A stretch of 64,000 bases of DNA from assembly GCA_003210775.1 (NCBI GenBank), contig QCUI01000005.1, forward strand, positions 1 through 64,000, in the 5' to 3' direction. A model generated the notes under the pieces. That model had not been told where the DNA came from. It saw only the letters and a program-made list of their open reading frames with translations, and searched no databases. Shown piece after piece: positions 2,770 to 31,884 of this stretch (its first letter is position 1; each line of letters starts with the position of its first letter). The stretch is from Synechococcus sp. AG-679-A04 (lineage in GTDB: Bacteria > Cyanobacteriota > Cyanobacteriia > PCC-6307 > Cyanobiaceae). A program made the position numbers and the translations under genes.

Positions 2770-3527
2770 CCAATCTCAGTCCTGGTCGTCCAGCCTGGCG
2801 GCATCAAATCACTAGAGAGCGGGCGCTGGTCATCGTTCCCGCCGTGCTTGGTCTGACGCTGGCGGCAGGGGTGTTCGCTGCAGTGGGTTGGCCGGCATTT
2901 GATCGGGTCGATCAGCAGCGGCAGCGGATCGCGGTACTCGAGAGCAAGAGAGACTCTCTGCCTCTCATGGAGGCTCAGCTCAAGCGGAGTGAAACAAGCC
3001 TCAGTGAAGCGATGCAGCAGCAAGCTTTGATAGTGGATCTGGTGGCAGGTCGCGGCCAGATTCAGACATTTCTGGCTCAGCTCAGCCGCATCTCCGCTGC
3101 AAGCGGGGTGCTGATCAACCTGTATGAACCGGTACCGGTGAGTTCATCCGAAGCCTCGAATCGCAGTGGCACCAAGGATCGGCGGAAAAAGCGTGCGGTC
3201 ACTGCCCAAGCCAGCAACGATCCTTTCCAGACACTGGGCTACCGGAAAAGCTCCGTGTTGCTGCAGGTGGAGGGTCCTTATCAGGGATTGCTGAAGTTCC
3301 TGAGAGAGATGGAGCAGCTAAAGCTGTTGGTTCAACCCAGTGAACTTGAGCTCACTGCTTTGGAGAATCCTGCCAACACTTCGGACCAGGGAGTGACCAG
3401 TGGGTCGCCTCGGACGCGATTGAAGCTGAAGCTGACCTTTTTTGATCAAGCTTCGAAGCCTGTCAACGGTGCTACCAGTTCTTCGGGGTCTACTGAGATG
3501 AAGGCCAAAGCAGACCCACCCTCGTAA
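2766..3527 (+). CDS. pilO: PilO-like pilus assembly protein (first set)
   Basis: PilO partners PilN in the periplasm and joins the inner-membrane platform to the secretin. The 253-residue product has a membrane helix at about residues 20-40, a coiled coil at about 55-85 and a C-terminal periplasmic domain. A basic low-complexity insert (SGTKDRRKKRA region) lies near residue 135. The start is TTG at 2766, overlapping the TGA stop of pilN. The paralogue at 8744 has the same layout, including coupling to an upstream pilN-like gene. Confidence 0.8.
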   Translation: MTNLSPGRPAWRHQITRERALVIVPAVLGLTLAAGVFAAVGWPAFDRVDQQRQRIAVLESKRDSLPLMEAQLKRSETSLSEAMQQQALIVDLVAGRGQIQTFLAQLSRISAASGVLINLYEPVPVSSSEASNRSGTKDRRKKRAVTAQASNDPFQTLGYRKSSVLLQVEGPYQGLLKFLREMEQLKLLVQPSELELTALENPANTSDQGVTSGSPRTRLKLKLTFFDQASKPVNGATSSSGSTEMKAKADPPS

Positions 3528-3629
3528 GGCGCAGTTCGGATTGGTTGATGGCTGCTGTTTCTCCAGGGCTGGCCCTGGTCTAATCCGATCGATACCATCC
3601 GCCCATGTTCACGGGGTTCAGACCCGGGT

Positions 3630-5975
3630 ATGCAGCTCACCCCTTCCCGATTCTCAGCACTCTTGCTCGTCGCTGGTCTCAGCGTTGTTGAGTTGGGCCT
3701 GCTGGATGCTGCTGTCCGATCAGGTTCTCGTGCGGCACTGGCTCAAGGGGCGATCTCCCTAGGTATTCGTCGCGCTGATGGCGGTGTGGAAGTGGTGGTT
3801 CAGGGCGTTGGTCCACAGCCTGTCTTGCAGCAACGTCTCAATGGCCAGGTGTGGGAAGCGAGGTTGCAAACGAATGACACTCTTGGGTTGAGCAATGGTC
3901 GTAATCAGTTGTCTGATCCCGCTTCAGGTTTGCAGCGTGTGGCCATCAGGGGGTCGGGTAATTCCTATCAGCTTGAGGTGGTTCCCCAACCGGGGATGAC
4001 CTTGCAAGAGCCTGTGGTGAGTGCCGATGGGCGCAACTTGATCCTGCAGTTTCCAGGTCTTGTTGCCGGCCCCGTGTTGCAGACCGGACGCTTGGATTTG
4101 AATACGCCTGGAGTCGTTCCCCAGGCTCGGTATGCCCCACCCCTTCGTCCAAGGGCTGTGGCACCACCGCTCGGCGATATGGCTGTGGGAACGATGGTGT
4201 TGCAAAACCGCAGCTTTGTGAATGTGAACGGGCCGCCGGTAACGCTCACACTCAACAATGCACCAGCCAAAGATGCATTAATGGCTTTGGCGAGATTGGG
4301 TGGCTATGGCTTCGTGTTCGTCGCTGACTCCTCCGCTAGCGGAACGTCTGGTGCGCCAGGCGTTGAGGAGGATCCTCAAGGAGGCACCGTTTCAATGGCC
4401 TTCCAGGGCGAAAGTTACGCGAGAGCTCTGAATGGTGTGTTGCTGGCATCGGGGCTGCAAGGCAAGCTCGACGGCCGCACAATTTTGGTCGGCAAGACAG
4501 CCGCTTCCAAAACTTTTGGACCTCAGATGTCCAAGGTGATCAGGCTGAATCAGGTCAGTGCGAGGGCAGCTGCGGAATATCTCGGCAACCTTGGCGCCAA
4601 CTTCAACCTCACCAACACGATCACGACAACGTCGGGTGAGATGTCACAGGCTGGCACTGCTCAGCTCAGTGACCAAACATCCCAATCGACGTCGACCACT
4701 CTCTACAGCGAAAGCTTTGGAGCATCGACCGGTCCGCTGCGAGGTTTGGTTGTGACGACAGATTCACGCTTGCAGACGCTCACACTGGTGGGTGATTCCA
4801 AGCTTGTATCAGTTGCCGAGGGCTACTTAAGGCAAGTCGACCTGCGACAGAGGCAAGTGGCATTGAGTGTTCGGATTCTTGATATTCAGTTGGATAATGA
4901 TTCCCAGATGAGTAACAGCTTTGCCTTCCGTTCCGGAAATGCATTCATTGTGAATGATGATGGAAGTCTGCTTGCAAATTTTGGCGCCTATAAGCCTCCT
5001 GGCAGTGAGGCTGGAGGACTGCCTGGGCGTTACAGCGCAGGTGAAAATTCAACCCCTCTGTTGGGTAGTGGCAGCCTCCCTGAATCTGGGAGTCCATTCT
5101 TTGATGTTCCTAATTCTTCCTATCCATACCCGGGAAGTGGTGCAAGTGTTCCAGGTTTCCCTAATGCCAATCAAGTGCGGCCTGACTATGGAACTTATTC
5201 GAACCCACTCCAGCCAGGCATTACAGATATCAGCGTGGATGATGAAGGCGGTGCTGTTGAGTATGAATATACTCAGCCAACAAAGTTTCAGTATCCTGCC
5301 AATCAGTTTTTTGACTTCTTAAGTGCACAAATTCAGTCTAGTTCAGCGAAGTTGCTTGCCAACCCGACTTTGATCATTCAAGAAGGTGGTGGCAAAATGT
5401 TGGGAAGTGATGGATCTCCTATTGCTTCTGACGGCAAGGTTGGCCGCGAGCGTGCCAATGAGGCTTTGGTGACTGTTGGTACTCGTCTGATTACTAAGTA
5501 TAAAGTTCGAGAGGGGGAAAATGGCAGTATTTTTTGCGAGCCCGAGCTGGAAACAGCAGGCCTCACATTCGGAGCCAGAGTTGACAAGATTGATGACAAC
5601 GGATTTGTCACATTTTCACTCTCTCCGCAAGTATCTGCCGAAGTGGGTCAGCAATTTATAGAGCGATGTGGCAACATCAGTATTATCAATAGCCGAGCTC
5701 TTGATACGGGAAAAATTCGCGTTCGTGATGGTCAGACTCTTGTGCTTACGGGTGTTATCTCTGATAGCGATGTGCAAGCTGTTACTAAGTGGCCCATTCT
5801 TGGAGATATCCCATTAATCGGTCAATTTTTTAGGTCATCGAATGGGAGTCGTGCGAAAAGAGAGTTAGTGATTCTTGTTACGCCTCGAGTTATTGATGAT
5901 ACTCAGGGTGGAACTTTTGGCTATGGTTATCGCCCCAGTCTCCCGGCAGCGCGACAGATCATGAGTGGATCTTGA
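3630..5975 (+). CDS. pilQ: Type IV pilus secretin
   Basis: Outer-membrane secretin of 781 residues that forms the pore through which the pilus fibre passes. The N-terminus is a signal peptide (hydrophobic core about residues 8-30, ending near AALAQG). An AMIN-type domain follows, then secretin N-domains, and the C-terminal secretin barrel with the family signature around LTGVISDSDVQAVTKWPILGD and IPLIGQFFRSS, ending in VILVTPRVI. A Gly/Pro/Ser-rich insert of about 100 residues between roughly 430 and 540 interrupts the secretin region. It sits about 100 bases after pilO, the usual pilMNOQ order. Bases from about 4850 on look more A+T-rich than the start of the gene. Confidence 0.93.
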   Translation: MQLTPSRFSALLLVAGLSVVELGLLDAAVRSGSRAALAQGAISLGIRRADGGVEVVVQGVGPQPVLQQRLNGQVWEARLQTNDTLGLSNGRNQLSDPASGLQRVAIRGSGNSYQLEVVPQPGMTLQEPVVSADGRNLILQFPGLVAGPVLQTGRLDLNTPGVVPQARYAPPLRPRAVAPPLGDMAVGTMVLQNRSFVNVNGPPVTLTLNNAPAKDALMALARLGGYGFVFVADSSASGTSGAPGVEEDPQGGTVSMAFQGESYARALNGVLLASGLQGKLDGRTILVGKTAASKTFGPQMSKVIRLNQVSARAAAEYLGNLGANFNLTNTITTTSGEMSQAGTAQLSDQTSQSTSTTLYSESFGASTGPLRGLVVTTDSRLQTLTLVGDSKLVSVAEGYLRQVDLRQRQVALSVRILDIQLDNDSQMSNSFAFRSGNAFIVNDDGSLLANFGAYKPPGSEAGGLPGRYSAGENSTPLLGSGSLPESGSPFFDVPNSSYPYPGSGASVPGFPNANQVRPDYGTYSNPLQPGITDISVDDEGGAVEYEYTQPTKFQYPANQFFDFLSAQIQSSSAKLLANPTLIIQEGGGKMLGSDGSPIASDGKVGRERANEALVTVGTRLITKYKVREGENGSIFCEPELETAGLTFGARVDKIDDNGFVTFSLSPQVSAEVGQQFIERCGNISIINSRALDTGKIRVRDGQTLVLTGVISDSDVQAVTKWPILGDIPLIGQFFRSSNGSRAKRELVILVTPRVIDDTQGGTFGYGYRPSLPAARQIMSGS

Positions 5976-5987
5976 TCGATTTCTGAT

Positions 5988-6797
5988 TTAAAAGCCAAGG
6001 CCAAAGGGGATTAAGGCTTTGGCAGCGATCGGAGCAATCATTCGCAGCCCTGTGATTGTGCTCTGTAGCAATTGTCCGCCAATTCCTTTGCCTTCTTGGG
6101 GCGATACATTTTCAAGTCGGCGTTGACTGATTAACTTGGCTGCCTGATTGAGCTGTTCGGCCCATTCTGTTGACCCTTGGGTGTTGTAGAGAGACGCTGC
6201 GTAGAGGAAATCTGCTGCTGCGAGTTCATCCTTTGCCTGCTCGCTGCGGCTGATGCCTCTGGCGACCCAGCTCAGCGGCTCTTGAGGTTGGCTTTGAATC
6301 GCATCGCCAAATAACTGCTCAGCCACCAACCATTGGCCAGTCTGGAATGCTTCGACGCCAGCGTTGTGTAGTTGCGCGTGACTTCGGATTCCTTGTGCAA
6401 TGCCCCGAGCCCCACGCCAGTGCGCCTCAGTGAGAGCATCAGTATCAAGTTGTGCACCTGTGAGGTCCGCGTCCCGCAGATCCGTGCCATACAAGCGACT
6501 CCCAGTGAGATCGGCACCCCGCAGAGAAGCTCCGCGCAAGCTTGTGAAACTGAGATCAGCATCTCTGAGGTTGGCTCCATCCAGTTGAGCCTGACCGAGA
6601 TTGGCTCTCATTAATTGAGCTTCACTGAGATCAGCATCACGCAGGTCAGCGTGGACAAGGTCGGCGTCTGCAAGCCTGCAGCCGGGACAACTGCGCTCTT
6701 GCAGAACCTTGAGTAAAGCCTCATTGGCTTGTACAGGGGTTGCAATCAGCCCATTGCTGATCAAGAGCAGCACTATGGGCAGTTTTCGTCCAACCAT
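5988..6797 (-). CDS. Exported pentapeptide-repeat protein
   Basis: A 269-residue protein with a signal peptide (about residues 1-24, ending PVQA), a short CPGC motif at about 37-40, then roughly 15 tandem pentapeptide repeats of the A(D/N)Lxx type to about residue 115. Pentapeptide repeats fold as a right-handed beta helix. The rest is helical and resembles tetratricopeptide-type repeats, with a hydrophobic tail (PIAAKALIPFGLGF). It is convergent with pilQ, ending 12 bases from it. No enzymatic motif is visible. Function unknown; location suggests only an envelope protein near the pilus genes. Confidence 0.8.
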   Translation of the reverse strand: MVGRKLPIVLLLISNGLIATPVQANEALLKVLQERSCPGCRLADADLVHADLRDADLSEAQLMRANLGQAQLDGANLRDADLSFTSLRGASLRGADLTGSRLYGTDLRDADLTGAQLDTDALTEAHWRGARGIAQGIRSHAQLHNAGVEAFQTGQWLVAEQLFGDAIQSQPQEPLSWVARGISRSEQAKDELAAADFLYAASLYNTQGSTEWAEQLNQAAKLISQRRLENVSPQEGKGIGGQLLQSTITGLRMIAPIAAKALIPFGLGF

Positions 6798-6863
6798 GAC
6801 TAAGCCCTAGGTGTCTGCTTTGTATCAACCTTCGGAGTACCTGTCGATGCCATGGCTTGATGA

Positions 6864-7247
6864 TCAGGCTGCATCCCAACCACAGCTCATTGCTTCAGCC
6901 ATTAAGGCCTGGTCTAGGAGTTCCGAAGCGACTTCCTGAATGAGTTCCTCTCGTGCCTTGACCCGCTGATCGGCGCGATGAAGGGGGATTGTTTGCATCC
7001 TCAGCCTGAGACGTGTTCCATCTTCGCTGGCATTGCAATCTCGCAGTAGCTGAAGGATGTCAACAACCGCTACCCAGCTGAGGCGCACCCTATCCGTTGT
7101 GCAGAAGCTTGGTACAAACACCGGAGCCTGCTGGCTTTGGGCAATCAGCGTCGCAAATTCTTCAGCGTGCTGCCTGCGAAAACGCACAATCGCGAAGGGA
7201 TCCCTATCGAACCAGAGGCGATCGTTGATCAGAATATCTCTGGTCAT
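6864..7247 (-). CDS. Hypothetical protein coupled to DsbA-like gene
   Basis: A 127-residue protein that I do not recognise. It has no signal peptide or membrane segment and is rich in Arg, Leu and Gln. Its start overlaps the stop of the DsbA-like gene by 4 bases, so the two are transcribed together and probably translationally coupled. The only cysteines are in VPSFCTTDR, RDCNAS and MSCGWD. Being in a two-gene unit inside the pilus locus suggests, but does not show, a role in pilus biogenesis. Confidence 0.65.
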   Translation of the reverse strand: MTRDILINDRLWFDRDPFAIVRFRRQHAEEFATLIAQSQQAPVFVPSFCTTDRVRLSWVAVVDILQLLRDCNASEDGTRLRLRMQTIPLHRADQRVKAREELIQEVASELLDQALMAEAMSCGWDAA

Positions 7248-26510: not shown

Positions 26511-27635
26511 CTATTCCAGTAGCCAGATTCGGCTGAGTTTGGCGTGGCTTCCGTCGTAATAGCTGCGCGCAATACCATCGTTGATCTCACGGGATCGTGG
26601 ATCCTTGCCGAATTGATCGGAGATGGCGAAGGCCATGAATAGGGTCATCAGTTTTTCTGATGCCGCTGTCACCTTCGGCTCTGCAGGCATGGTTTTCAAG
26701 ACTGAACGCATCGTCAACATGTCGTCAAGAATGGCATCGGCCTTCCCAGACTGCAGAAGCTTGATGCAGGTTTCCGCAACGTCGCAATCCACTGTTTTTG
26801 CACCACTGCTTTTCAGGATTGACGTCTGGATGTATCCAGGGATGGCAGCAAATGTGTTGTTCTTCAGGATCTCGAGGTTCAGGTCTTCCATCTGATCTCC
26901 GCTGTTGGCATTCGTTTCGTTGGTGGCGACTTTGAGGATGAATGACGTGAAATAGGCCGTGAGCAGAACTCTTGCGAACAGGGAGCCGATAGAGATCAAG
27001 CGGGTGCGGGTATGTCGTGTGTGATCAGTTGATAGCAGCAGGGTCTTTTGAAGGATGAAGATCAGTTGGTGTCGCTTGCGCTTATCCGCAAGATCAGGTC
27101 TTTTCCGCTCTACGAACCAAACCGGTAGGGCGAAGATGCAGGCGATTAGTGCTAGTCCCAGGAAGATCAACAGCACCTGTTGTGATAACAAAATGCGCAA
27201 CATTTTGATGGCGGTTGGCTCCTGGTTATCCAGGGTGTAGATCTTCAGGTCGCTGCTGGCAGTGGGAAAGGAAAACCGAAATTGTTTGCTGCGATTTTCG
27301 TTAATCAGTACACCGGAAATGGCCAGATCGGCTTGGTTGGTTTGGATGGCTGTCAGCAGTTCTTCAAAGCTGTCTGCCTTGCGAATGCGGTAGGGAATCT
27401 GGCGTGTTTCGGCGATCATGCGCCAAAGATCAATCTCAAACCCTGCAGGAACGCCTTTGCGGTTGACGGCATAGGGAGGATTGGGAAACCAGATCACGTC
27501 CACAGGATCCTGAGCATCCGTGATCTCGTTGTTGGCGTGGGACGGGTGCTGCAGACCGCCCATCGCACAACCCCAGAGAGTACCCAGGCTCAGTATCAGG
27601 ACGGTTCTTAGTCGTCTCGACATCAAAGGCCACAT
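26511..27635 (-). CDS. GluR0-like ligand-gated receptor/channel
   Basis: A 374-residue protein with the layout of bacterial ionotropic glutamate receptors: a signal peptide or lipoprotein-like N-terminus (LWGCAMGG), solute-binding lobe 1 (about residues 45-140, with GVPAGFEIDLWRMIAE and DLAISGVLINENR), a membrane segment at about 147-170, a pore-like region, a second helix at about 215-240, then lobe 2. In GluR0 the pore loop carries TVGYGD; here that motif is absent (LLLSTDHTRHTRTR), so potassium selectivity is not expected. It may be a ligand sensor or a differently selective channel. A simple amino-acid ABC binding protein would lack the internal helices. Confidence 0.75.
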   Translation of the reverse strand: MWPLMSRRLRTVLILSLGTLWGCAMGGLQHPSHANNEITDAQDPVDVIWFPNPPYAVNRKGVPAGFEIDLWRMIAETRQIPYRIRKADSFEELLTAIQTNQADLAISGVLINENRSKQFRFSFPTASSDLKIYTLDNQEPTAIKMLRILLSQQVLLIFLGLALIACIFALPVWFVERKRPDLADKRKRHQLIFILQKTLLLSTDHTRHTRTRLISIGSLFARVLLTAYFTSFILKVATNETNANSGDQMEDLNLEILKNNTFAAIPGYIQTSILKSSGAKTVDCDVAETCIKLLQSGKADAILDDMLTMRSVLKTMPAEPKVTAASEKLMTLFMAFAISDQFGKDPRSREINDGIARSYYDGSHAKLSRIWLLE

Positions 27636-27766: not shown

Positions 27767-29389
27767 TCAGATCTGTGTGATTTCGCTACCTGCAGCCAGC
27801 AGCATGGCTTCGTTGAGCGCTCCGTCACGTCCCAGCTCCGTGCCTGCGAGGGCATTGAATCCAACGGTCATGGACTGGCCTGCACCAATGGACGAGCCCC
27901 AATCCGCTCCGGACAGTTCGTAGCGATAGAGCTCTCCATCCAACTGCTCAGTTGCCACGTCGACTCCCCAGGATTCGCCATAGAACCTGTGGTTGCTGTT
28001 GAAATTCACCGACCAGTTATCAAGTTGCTGCTCGCTCGGATTCGTCACCGTGAGGGAGGCTGTGAATCCACCCCACCAAAGATCGCCACTCACTTCAACA
28101 CCGAGAGCTTTGCCTGTTAAAAGATCGGTCTCTTCTGGTTGTATTTCGGGGAGAATTGGTCCTTGGGAAGGAACGGGTTGTGGCTCTGTGCTGATGACAC
28201 CAGGGCTGGACAACGCTTCGAGATTCTGCGCTAGTGGATCACCTAGAGAGACAATTCCCTGGTAGTAGTTGATCACCGTGGGGTCAGAAACATCCAGTGC
28301 TGGCCATTGCGGCCAATCAAAGGTGTCATTCATGAAGGGTTGGTCCTGATCCCATCCCAGAACAGTGAGGTGATTGATGTCGTGGGCAATCGCCACACCT
28401 TCAATGTCTAAAAATCCATGGGTGCGGCCATGCATCCATCCCCCGTAATGGGGCTCCATTTTTAAGGTACTGATGAAAGCTTCCTTCAGCCCGGTCTGCT
28501 CGATGTAGTCGGCAAATCCCTCGTGGCCAAACTCACGAACCATTCCCATGACGTCGTCTTGGGATCCCAGTCGTGCTGTTCGTTGGATGTCCGCGAGGAT
28601 CTGAGGGTTATAGGCCTGATCTGCAATCCAGCCCACCTTGGCTCCCTGCATGGCATACCAAAGGCCGACCCCCTTGGTGTCATTGCCCCAGGCCTGAGAA
28701 TTGTTGGTCAGGCCGTTGGCAAAAGCCCATTCGCCAACGGCTTCAATCTCCACAGATTCAAGTCCTGCGAAAGCACGTAAGCCGTTGTAGGCCTCCAAGG
28801 CTTCGGTCGTGATGGCTGTGCGGCCTCCGACCAGTTCGTTGTGCTCGGAATTGTGATTGGAGCCGTGGAAGTTTCCCCAGCTGTTGATATCGGTGTAATT
28901 CCCTGCTGTGGTGGCGTGCTTATGCATGGAGTGATCGTGGCCGGCCTGGTCGTCCATTCCGGCCGCGTTCATCGACATTTCGCTCATCGACATTCCGTCC
29001 ATGGTCATGGAGGAGTCGGGATTGGAGTCTGCGCTGGTGCTGGAGTTCAAGCCAGCCTCTGAAACCAGCATCTGTTCGGTCAGGCTGCCATCGCTTCCAA
29101 GGTCAATGCCCTGCGTTCCGTTGAAGCCAACATTGATGGTTCCGCCTGCTGGAATGCCACTGCCCCAATCCGCTCCTGTGAGGGTGTAGCGGGTCAGTCC
29201 ATTCTCCAAGGTTTCGCTTTCGAGAGCGACTCCCCAGGCATTGGGATCGAGTTGATGGCGACTGGTGAAGCTGATGGTCCAGTCTTCAAGAGCCTGATCG
29301 CTTGAATTGGTGATGGCCAGGTCGGCAGTGAAGCCGCCCCACCAAATGTCCCCACCGATTGATACCTGCAGTGACTCAGATGGTGTCAT
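27767..29389 (-). CDS. CBM2-unknown-CBM2 carbohydrate-binding protein
   Basis: A 540-residue protein. Residues about 8-107 and 430-535 are related beta-sandwich domains of the CBM2 type: both have a WWGGFTA motif, a buried Trp-containing strand (LEDWTISF and LDNWSVNF), and GADWGSxIxAGxxxxVGFN. CBM2 domains bind cellulose, and some bind chitin. Between them are a Met/His-rich linker (residues 127-158, eight Met and four His) and an unrecognised central domain (about 165-385) with many His, including HGRTHGFLD and AHDINHL. There is no N-terminal signal peptide, so secretion would need another route such as type I. No glycoside hydrolase signature is evident to me. Confidence 0.78.
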   Translation of the reverse strand: MTPSESLQVSIGGDIWWGGFTADLAITNSSDQALEDWTISFTSRHQLDPNAWGVALESETLENGLTRYTLTGADWGSGIPAGGTINVGFNGTQGIDLGSDGSLTEQMLVSEAGLNSSTSADSNPDSSMTMDGMSMSEMSMNAAGMDDQAGHDHSMHKHATTAGNYTDINSWGNFHGSNHNSEHNELVGGRTAITTEALEAYNGLRAFAGLESVEIEAVGEWAFANGLTNNSQAWGNDTKGVGLWYAMQGAKVGWIADQAYNPQILADIQRTARLGSQDDVMGMVREFGHEGFADYIEQTGLKEAFISTLKMEPHYGGWMHGRTHGFLDIEGVAIAHDINHLTVLGWDQDQPFMNDTFDWPQWPALDVSDPTVINYYQGIVSLGDPLAQNLEALSSPGVISTEPQPVPSQGPILPEIQPEETDLLTGKALGVEVSGDLWWGGFTASLTVTNPSEQQLDNWSVNFNSNHRFYGESWGVDVATEQLDGELYRYELSGADWGSSIGAGQSMTVGFNALAGTELGRDGALNEAMLLAAGSEITQI

Positions 29390-29579: not shown

Positions 29580-30275
29580 TTAGGAAATGAGCCCGAGCCT
29601 TAATGCTGCGGAGACGGCACTGGCTCTGTTGCTGACTTCCAGGCGCGTGAGGATCTCACTGAAGTGATCGCGAGCAGTGTTGACGGAGATGTTGAGCTGA
29701 TCAGCGATTTGACGATTGCTCAGCCCTTCGGCGACCAAGGCGAGAATTTCAAGCTGGCGTTCTGAAAGCACTTTGGCCTTCTCCCGGGCAAGAATTCCTT
29801 CCCCCTTAAGGAGACTTGGATCCTCATAATGTTTGCCTTGTTTCATGGAAGTCAGAGCGTTTATCAACGCTCCGGAGCGTTGTTCCACACTCCGTTCATT
29901 CAGGATTGCATCCACGTTCAGTCCTCGGGCAATTCGCAAGCTGCTTTTGCCTTGACGGTTGATGAGGAGCAGTGTGCGATGGCTGATATGGAAGCGTTTG
30001 CAGTCACGCAGCAAGTCCAGTCCGCTTCCGTCACTGAGTTGTTCGGACACGAGAAGCCAGTGAGGGGACTTGACGTTCTTCAGATAAATCATCGCTTCAG
30101 CTCTGGAGTTATAAAAGCGCCTGATTTTTTTGCTTTGCATCCCTGAAAGTCGCAGCATTTGCTCAACTGCAAAAAGATGTGGGTAGAGGCAGATGAGTAA
30201 ATCTTGATCGTGGATCAGTGAACGAATCCTGCGTGCTTTTTCAAGATCACTGGTTTCACTTCCGTTTTGGGGCAT
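29580..30275 (-). CDS. LuxR/NarL-type regulator with degenerate receiver
   Basis: A 231-residue protein from ATG 30275; a longer frame from 30356 would run into the ABC gene. The N-terminal half has the receiver fold spacing, but the phosphoacceptor aspartate is replaced by serine (LLVSEQLSDGSGLDLLR in place of the usual LLDxxLPDxxGLxLL) and the acidic pair is missing. The C-terminal half is a typical LuxR helix-turn-helix: LSERQLEILALVAEGLSNRQIADQLNISVNTARDHFSEIL. It would bind DNA without phosphorylation control. Its neighbour downstream is the CBM2 gene, on the same strand, 190 bases away. Confidence 0.85.
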   Translation of the reverse strand: MPQNGSETSDLEKARRIRSLIHDQDLLICLYPHLFAVEQMLRLSGMQSKKIRRFYNSRAEAMIYLKNVKSPHWLLVSEQLSDGSGLDLLRDCKRFHISHRTLLLINRQGKSSLRIARGLNVDAILNERSVEQRSGALINALTSMKQGKHYEDPSLLKGEGILAREKAKVLSERQLEILALVAEGLSNRQIADQLNISVNTARDHFSEILTRLEVSNRASAVSAALRLGLIS

Positions 30276-30279
30276 AACA

Positions 30280-31884
30280 TCAACTTGGCAATCGAGGACA
30301 GGCTTCAACGAGTGTTCGCGTGATCTCGGCCTGCGGTTGATGCAGCAGTTGGTCACCGGGCCCTTCTTCCACGACGTGCCCCTTGTTGAGCACGATCAGT
30401 CGATGGCAGAAGCCACTGGCCACTGAAAGGTCATGGGTGATGAAAATCATGGCCAGCCCGAGTTCATGCTGCAGCTGGCGAAGCAGTGCCAGAACCTCAG
30501 CTTGGATTTCGGCATCAAGCATGCTCACGCTTTCATCACAGATCAGCACCTTCGGTTTCAGCGCCAGAGCGCGGGCAATGGCCACCCGTTGCTGCTGGCC
30601 TCCGGAAAGCTGTCGGGGAAGACGGTTTTGGTAACGATCTGCTGGTCCAAGACCGACTCGCTCCATCAGCTGACGGCCCTGTTCACGAGCTGCTGCTGGT
30701 GAGGCCAGATTGTGGATAAGCAGTGGATCGACGATGGCATCCAGCACCGACATGGCTGGATTCAGGCAGGCCAGGGGGTCTTGGAACACCATCTGAATGG
30801 TTCGTCGCACTTGACGAGCCTCACGTCCCCGCAGCTTCAGTAGGTCCTTACCGAGTAGCTGTACCCTGCCGCCACGTATCGGCGTGAGTCCCATCAGGGC
30901 TCGGCAAAGGGTGCTTTTGCCACAGCCAGAACCTCCCACCACTCCCAGGGTTTCGCCAGCTCGCAACTGGAAGCTGATGCCATCAACCGCCTTCAGCCAG
31001 GTTGGATTCCAGGGTGGACCACCCAGGTTGTGCCAGCAGCGCAGTTCCTGCACAGCCAGCACCGTGTCGGCGTCGGGTGCTTCAGGTGTGCTGCCCCCCT
31101 CTCTTGCTCGTGCAGCCGCAAGCAGCCGTTGTCCCACTCTGGAGCTGGGATAGGTCAGAACCACATCGCTGCGGTTGATCTCCACGACGCGACCGCCGTC
31201 CAGCACAGCCATGCGTTCGCACCAGCGATGGGCCATGGCCAGATCGTGGGTGATCAGCAACAAAGCGCTGCCAAGTTCCTCGCACAGCGTTCTTAGAGCA
31301 GCCATCACCTGACCTGCCACGGCCACATCCAGGCTTGTGGTGGGTTCGTCAGCGATCACCAGCGGAGGGCTGAGGGCGATGGCCAGTGCGATGGCCAGGC
31401 GCTGGCGCATGCCGCCGCTGAACTCGTGTGGGTAGGCGCGGAAGCGAGTGGCGCCGATGCCCACCTGCTCCAGCAACTCTTCGGCTCGCTGGAGACGTTC
31501 TGCATCGTTCATGTCTGGCCTGTGGGCACGCAGGGTGTCCAGTAGGTGACCTCCCACGGTCATCAGTGGATTCAGGCGTGTCATCGGATCCTGAAACACC
31601 AGTCCCACCGATTCACCGCGCAATCTCCTCAGATCGGCAAGGGTCAGGCTGCGGGGATCGTGACCGTTCAGGGTGAGTCCTCCTTCGCAACTGCTGCCTG
31701 GGGGCAGCAGTTGCAGCGCTGCCCTGGCCACCGTGCTCTTGCCGCAGCCGGAGGGCCCCACCAAGGCCAGGCGTTCGCCCGGGCGCAAACGCAGGTCAAG
31801 CCCATCAAGAGTCCACACCTGGCTGCCGGGGTAACGCAGCCGGAACTGGTCGAGTTCCAGCACAGTCCCTGGCGCAGTTGTCAT
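30280..31884 (-). CDS. Fused double ABC ATPase, oligopeptide/dipeptide type
   Basis: A 534-residue protein with two complete ATPase domains of the DppD/DppF type. First domain: Walker A GPSGCGKSTVAR, signature FSGGMRQRLAIA, Walker B LVIADEPTTSLD. Second: GGSGCGKSTLCR, LSGGQQQRVAIARAL, VLICDESVSMLD, where Pro of the usual DEPxSxLD is Ser. These energise import of peptides or related compounds; no permease or binding-protein gene is adjacent, so partners are elsewhere. ATG 31884 (MTTAPGTVLELDQF) is preferred; ATG 31908 is possible. Divergent from rel across about 60 bases. Confidence 0.9.
   Translation of the reverse strand: MTTAPGTVLELDQFRLRYPGSQVWTLDGLDLRLRPGERLALVGPSGCGKSTVARAALQLLPPGSSCEGGLTLNGHDPRSLTLADLRRLRGESVGLVFQDPMTRLNPLMTVGGHLLDTLRAHRPDMNDAERLQRAEELLEQVGIGATRFRAYPHEFSGGMRQRLAIALAIALSPPLVIADEPTTSLDVAVAGQVMAALRTLCEELGSALLLITHDLAMAHRWCERMAVLDGGRVVEINRSDVVLTYPSSRVGQRLLAAARAREGGSTPEAPDADTVLAVQELRCWHNLGGPPWNPTWLKAVDGISFQLRAGETLGVVGGSGCGKSTLCRALMGLTPIRGGRVQLLGKDLLKLRGREARQVRRTIQMVFQDPLACLNPAMSVLDAIVDPLLIHNLASPAAAREQGRQLMERVGLGPADRYQNRLPRQLSGGQQQRVAIARALALKPKVLICDESVSMLDAEIQAEVLALLRQLQHELGLAMIFITHDLSVASGFCHRLIVLNKGHVVEEGPGDQLLHQPQAEITRTLVEACPRLPS

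Follow-up and report, generated by a model that had tools for sequence, protein, structure and literature searches.

What might a marine picocyanobacterium do with a protein that combines two predicted polysaccharide-binding modules with a domain that databases do not recognize? Such a protein, 540 amino acids long, is encoded from an ATG start at 27767-29389 on the minus strand of the window, the whole 64,000-nucleotide stretch of Synechococcus DNA analysed here. Between its two bounding stops the frame spans 555 codons, which leaves room for no more than 15 further codons upstream of the ATG. The domains run in the order CBM2, Met/His-rich tract, core of about 240 residues and CBM2, and the features discussed below are located as follows.

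27767..29389, minus strand: whole gene, orthologue of WH7803_2345, 540 aa (open reading frame; locus and sequence comparison)
29108..29368, minus strand: N-terminal CBM2, residues 8-94 (Pfam PF00553 and alignment to 1EXG)
28913..29011, minus strand: Met/His-rich tract, residues 127-159 (composition against the rest of the ORFs, 62 copies)
28190..28912, minus strand: core domain, residues 160-400 (alignment A1 of 55 sequences; unmatched in Pfam, NCBIfam and PDB)
28370..28459, minus strand: invariant His cluster, residues 311-340 (His 314, 320, 324, 336 and 340; invariant in 55/55 copies)
27854..28090, minus strand: C-terminal CBM2, residues 434-512 (Pfam PF00553 and alignment to 1EXG)
29580..30356, minus strand: LuxR/GerE-type regulator next to the core gene (homologous to the regulator beside chiA, L059 2895-3599, plus strand, E ~1e-23)

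A sequence-only reading had described two CBM2 modules around a new central domain, with no signal peptide and no glycosidase or LPMO signature. The two modules were confirmed with Pfam CBM_2 (PF00553), which matched two stretches, residues ~16-94 and ~444-511, above its curated cut-off (protein-level E 3.9e-19; single-copy scores of 44.6 and 38.8 bits). Alignment to the CBM2a of Cex (1EXG) revealed that both copies keep W17, W54 and W72. These three exposed tryptophans are surface residues of CBM2a, a type A module that binds crystalline polysaccharide, and the pair is predicted to dock on crystalline cellulose or chitin. Direct reading of the N-terminus, MTPSESLQVSIGGDIWWGG, bore out the lack of a signal peptide; it begins MTPSES, without the N-terminal His brace of AA10 enzymes. 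Neither the core nor the full protein contains a GH18, GH9, GH5 or other glycosidase catalytic domain by Pfam and NCBIfam, and the LPMO_10 profile (PF03067) matched nothing in the protein or in this genome, which is 74% complete. As had been proposed, the protein is most likely secreted, since non-cyanobacterial relatives have signal peptides or secreted enzymes. Type I secretion may be the export route: a HlyB-type ABC exporter is present in the genome, on a different contig from the gene.

The core matched no Pfam or NCBIfam profile and no PDB sequence, in line with its description as new, and despite this it is a real family. When one genome per species was scanned, 54 core loci were found in marine Synechococcus, Planctomycetota (Pirellulaceae-type and Phycisphaerae), Pseudomonadota (Halieaceae and Methyloprofundus) and Myxococcota bins, together with a few further bins labelled Spirochaeta, Micrococcales and Dehalococcoidia, labels that may be wrong. 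One tailed phage carries the core as well. The 55 aligned copies were 61-94% identical to the window core, with 75 of 243 columns invariant. The invariant residues include five histidines in the motif M-E-P-H-x5-H-x3-H-x11-H-D-x-N-H (His 314, 320, 324, 336 and 340) and the acidic residues E312, E330, D337, D355 and D358. All five histidines fall within 27 residues, which random draws from the invariant columns reproduced in 0.2% of cases (p 0.002). They form a putative metal site, the basis on which a metalloenzyme is suggested below.

In the core tree the cyanobacterial sequences formed one clade (100/98), and at least four label changes were required for Planctomycetota, which suggests that the core has been transferred between lineages. 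The family is rare, because a search of 391 other planctomycete-phylum genomes yielded just one more true member. In the class of the gammaproteobacterial relative, 368 further genomes yielded a single weak match (L087, E 7e-4), to a phosphoserine-phosphatase-like ORF that was rejected as chance, and no core was present in 50,697 phage or 72,556 plasmid records. Hits of the core to DUF6600 (E 0.2), cytochrome P450 fragments and ORF1ab polyprotein chains (E 0.1) were discarded as search noise, and kinship with tyrosinase/hemocyanin, considered for the two HxxxH motifs in the core, was dropped for want of a profile match. Two ORFs carry tandem cores (L011 4555-7179, from RCC307, and L014 5806-8736), and the two in L014 are identical in sequence. 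AlphaFold models of the core from two different family members (pLDDT 75 and 78, pTM 0.81) were mostly helical and weak over the second half of the His cluster and the stretch that follows. A structure search of the core, as the sequence-only reading had suggested, was made with these models (pLDDT only 75-78) and returned nothing among PDB folds at E ≤ 0.001, with TM scores to the query of 0.2 or below; the first model also had no match among viral folds. It is possible that the core fold is new, with part of the models being weakly supported.

The partners of the core were examined in the other family members. We found the core joined in a single polypeptide to GH18 (L024, L027, L029 and, from the phage, L068), with GH5 (L036), with GH9 (L010, L018 and L056), with an AA10 LPMO and CBM2 (L043 and L050) and with a chitin-type CBM5/12 (L045); most other copies are joined to CBM2. 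The partnership of the core with polysaccharide enzymes is well supported. L068 and the planctomycete protein L029 each unite a CBM2 pair, a module like the N-terminus of ChiA, a His/Met tract, the core and GH18. This genome encodes its own ChiA (GH18 with two CBM2) on C14, whose N-terminus is 47% identical to the module of L068 and L029, while their cores are 68-70% identical to the window core. The GH18 of L068 is a full domain, 44% identical to this ChiA, and that of L029 is a partial match at a contig edge, 35% identical. By these comparisons, Synechococcus seems to have an L068/L029-like protein split over two genes, one for ChiA and one for the window protein. The ChiA N-terminal module, about 230 residues (L059 3783-7352, plus strand), has no Pfam match itself and is common to the planctomycete and phage fusions.

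The phage protein deserves separate mention, as a phage-borne chitinase of this type would be notable. L068 (IMG/VR 3300025120_013924, 3186-7166, plus strand) is 1326 aa long and comprises two CBM2, the ChiA N-terminal module, the tract, the core and GH18. PHROG and Pfam scans confirmed that its 62.8 kb contig, the rest of which is covered by L097-L099, belongs to a tailed phage, with tape measure, baseplate wedge and Tail_P2_I genes, and a DUF1559 gene on it suggests a planctomycete host. The GH9-fused cores lie at the same Synechococcus locus as the window gene (L010 5986-9171, L018 2683-5760 and L056 5950-8124), suggesting cellulose-type substrates in a picocyanobacterium.

These fusions to GH18, GH5, GH9 and AA10 enzymes and the five invariant histidines lay beyond what the sequence-only reading, partly supported as a whole, could see. 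The core is probably an undescribed polysaccharide-acting module, perhaps a metal-dependent one. The best explanation, to which we give slightly less than an even chance, is that of a secreted, substrate-docked auxiliary module that aids the breakdown of crystalline chitin or cellulose and is probably a metalloenzyme, metal and catalysis both being predicted from sequence.

The tract before the core may serve as a source of metal. It had been likened to copper-binding sequences for eight Met and four His in residues 127-158; the counts are correct, and this metal-binding-like character is retained from phylum to phylum. Across 62 distinct copies, His makes up 9.7% and Met 6.8% of the 39-residue stretch preceding the core; elsewhere in these ORFs the figures are 2.3% and 2.0%, and directly behind the core His accounts for 1.0%. 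At least three His occur in 44 of the 62 pre-core 39-mers versus 8.9% of random 39-mers, with the small caveat that the stretch takes in signal-peptide residues in those planctomycete proteins whose core almost directly follows a putative signal peptide. This enrichment indicates that the tract is not due to chance. The sequence itself varies (19-23% identity between the window and more distant Synechococcus orthologues) and the composition persists, even in the planctomycete proteins just mentioned, for example ...TASAQHNHHPAMDSEF in L019. In such Pirellulaceae-type proteins (L019-L023, L054 and L057) the mature N-terminus would therefore be approximately QHNHH or QDDHH and might act as a tail that binds metal. 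A Met-rich tract, MDSMPMDMQMPMDM, is likewise present in this genome's ChiA. A few cores lack the tract (L036/L081, L047 and L056), and their existence makes it an accessory of the core, neither fixed nor essential.

Conserved HDH/Met-rich tracts that resemble metal-binding tails could also mean that tract and core together capture or detoxify metal at the cell surface or on particles, with the CBM2s as mere anchors. We regard this as very improbable: it is the core that is invariant rather than the tract, which some cores do without, the fusions are with polysaccharide enzymes and not with metal-handling proteins, and the knock-out phenotype lies in chitinase activity (PMC10651935).

That knock-out concerns the orthologue of the window gene in strain WH7803. 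A chitin-binding protein in a picocyanobacterium had been called notable, but it is no surprise as such: marine Synechococcus has already been published to use chitin and to secrete chitinase, and WH7803_2345 has been knocked out (PMC10651935). In a WH7803-like genome we found exactly five CBM2 domains, of which the core ORF and ChiA have two each and the gene next to chiA has the fifth; the same arrangement is described for WH7803 in PMC10651935, and on this agreement the orthologue is identified as WH7803_2345. It has the architecture CBM2, core, CBM2 in a 537-codon frame and the same neighbourhood, with an ABC transporter and LuxR upstream and a solute-binding protein and RluD downstream. 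Identity between the window protein and this orthologue is 76% in the core, 61% in each CBM2 and 19% in the linker, making the core more conserved than the CBM2s. The protein is already known as a CBM2 protein. PMC10651935 gives it just the two CBM2 domains, and no account of the core or its relatives, nor of the tract or the His cluster, was found there. The core family, its fusions and its His cluster were likewise not found described in the searchable literature.

According to the same paper, loss of 2345 in WH7803 significantly lowered endochitinase and chitobiosidase activity, although chiA expression rose, and left attachment to chitin unchanged; chiA and 2345 compensate for each other in expression, and the genes resisted cloning in E. 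coli (PMC10651935). WH7803 without ChiA is reported there to have no chitinase activity on fluorogenic oligomer substrates (PMC10651935), and the core is therefore not an ordinary chitobiosidase or endochitinase. This bears on the proposal that the core is a new non-redox glycoside hydrolase or polysaccharide deacetylase, in which Glu/Asp 312, 330, 337, 355 and 358 would be catalytic and the histidines would bind zinc or substrate. Such an enzyme would suit the acidic residues adjoining the His cluster, the mostly helical core model and fusion partners that are all polysaccharide enzymes. It is unlikely, given that ChiA loss alone abolishes measurable chitinase activity with the core protein still there (PMC10651935), that the fold search linked the core to neither lysozyme-like nor (alpha/alpha)6 enzymes and that His/Met tracts are unusual in hydrolases.

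Apart from WH7803_2345, three known systems come closest to the window protein. ChiA of marine Synechococcus shares with the window protein the genome, a CBM2 pair, a Met-rich tract (in this strain) and the lack of a signal peptide, and is joined to the core in one protein in other organisms, but it has a GH18 catalytic domain where the window protein has none. AA10 LPMOs and the copper oxidase CelOCE (PMC13353379) would be alike as auxiliary proteins with clustered histidines that boost hydrolases, a hypothetical likeness, and core and AA10 share one chain in L043 and L050. In contrast to these enzymes, the core has no sequence or fold similarity to them and is predicted to be helical rather than a beta-sandwich or jelly-roll, the 540-residue protein has no N-terminal His brace and no AA10 was found in this 74% complete genome. 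Chitin-binding proteins of Vibrio and Serratia, cited in PMC10651935, are also linked to chitin, have no GH domain and alter chitinase expression when lost. They are likened by description; the core matches no named family.

We compared the occurrence of the core and of ChiA in 250 genomes of the host's taxonomic family. The core was found in 26 and ChiA-type GH18 in 36, with both in 19, the core only in 7, GH18 only in 17 and neither in 207 (Fisher p 2e-13, uncorrected for phylogeny). The 7 genomes with the core only have no GH18 whatsoever by Pfam search, and in both of those checked the core protein is the sole CBM2 protein, indicating that the core has a job of its own and is not merely an accessory of ChiA. 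The core gene lies between the ABC transporter and RluD in nearly all Synechococcus loci where this is visible, including those of the GH9-fused forms, and a LuxR-type regulator adjoins it here and in several relatives. Homologous LuxR-type regulators beside the two genes may be behind the mutual compensation of chiA and 2345 in the mutants, a presumed regulatory link.

This arrangement, with LuxR-type regulators beside both the core gene and chiA, would also suit a core that is a non-catalytic helper, structural, scaffolding or regulatory; jointly with the CBM2s it would open up the surface, place ChiA or signal the presence of chitin, as the Vibrio and Serratia proteins may do. The authors of PMC10651935 favour an indirect role, read as indirect regulation, the mutual compensation of chiA and 2345 points the same way, and the fusions are also compatible with a helper domain. 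Against it, 75 of 243 invariant columns across phyla and a five-His cluster exceed the usual demands of binding or scaffolding, the 7 genomes mentioned above keep the core without a GH18 to help, and the knock-out did not alter chitin attachment (PMC10651935). We judge a helper rather improbable, though better placed than a hydrolase.

If the core is an auxiliary metalloenzyme, as we prefer, the gene product would be a secreted protein for the breakdown of crystalline beta-1,4 glycans, presumably chitin and perhaps cellulose. The two CBM2s would dock it on the polysaccharide surface, and the metal site would most likely be built from His 314, 320, 324, 336 and 340 with nearby Glu/Asp, fed by the flexible His/Met-rich tract, which would gather or deliver the metal. 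A metal site is proposed, with copper as the best guess, because of the clustered invariant histidines and the His/Met tail. The core would loosen or cleave the surface and render the separate GH18 ChiA more effective, and in other lineages it would do so while fused in one chain to its working partner, a chitinase, cellulase or LPMO. Architecture, conservation, fusions, isolation of the family and co-occurrence are direct observations of this work. The wider proposal is a doubtful one, if a little less so than the helper: that the core founds a new metal-dependent, probably copper, family of polysaccharide-active enzymes whose fold the PDB does not yet contain, a His/Met-fed oxidative booster beside GH18, GH5, GH9 and AA10, employed by marine Synechococcus, Planctomycetota and gammaproteobacteria, with one phage bearing it too.

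Interest in how picocyanobacteria use chitin is recent, and in the literature searched the central domain of the ChiA-boosting protein is undescribed. Fusions to chitinase, cellulase and LPMO place the protein in a cross-phylum family and yield the prediction that the core uses its His cluster to act on crystalline chitin or cellulose. A metal-dependent enzyme, if that is what it is, would be a new biomass-breaking family of relevance to the marine carbon and nitrogen cycle and to biotechnology.

The neighbouring gene at 26511-27635 of the window (minus strand) encodes a family 3 solute-binding protein that resembles 2PYY, a bacterial homologue of ionotropic glutamate receptors. A membrane-like insert lies between the halves of its binding domain, seemingly without a K+ channel selectivity filter. 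In several Synechococcus this gene adjoins that of the core, and in WH7803 it is read in two frames.
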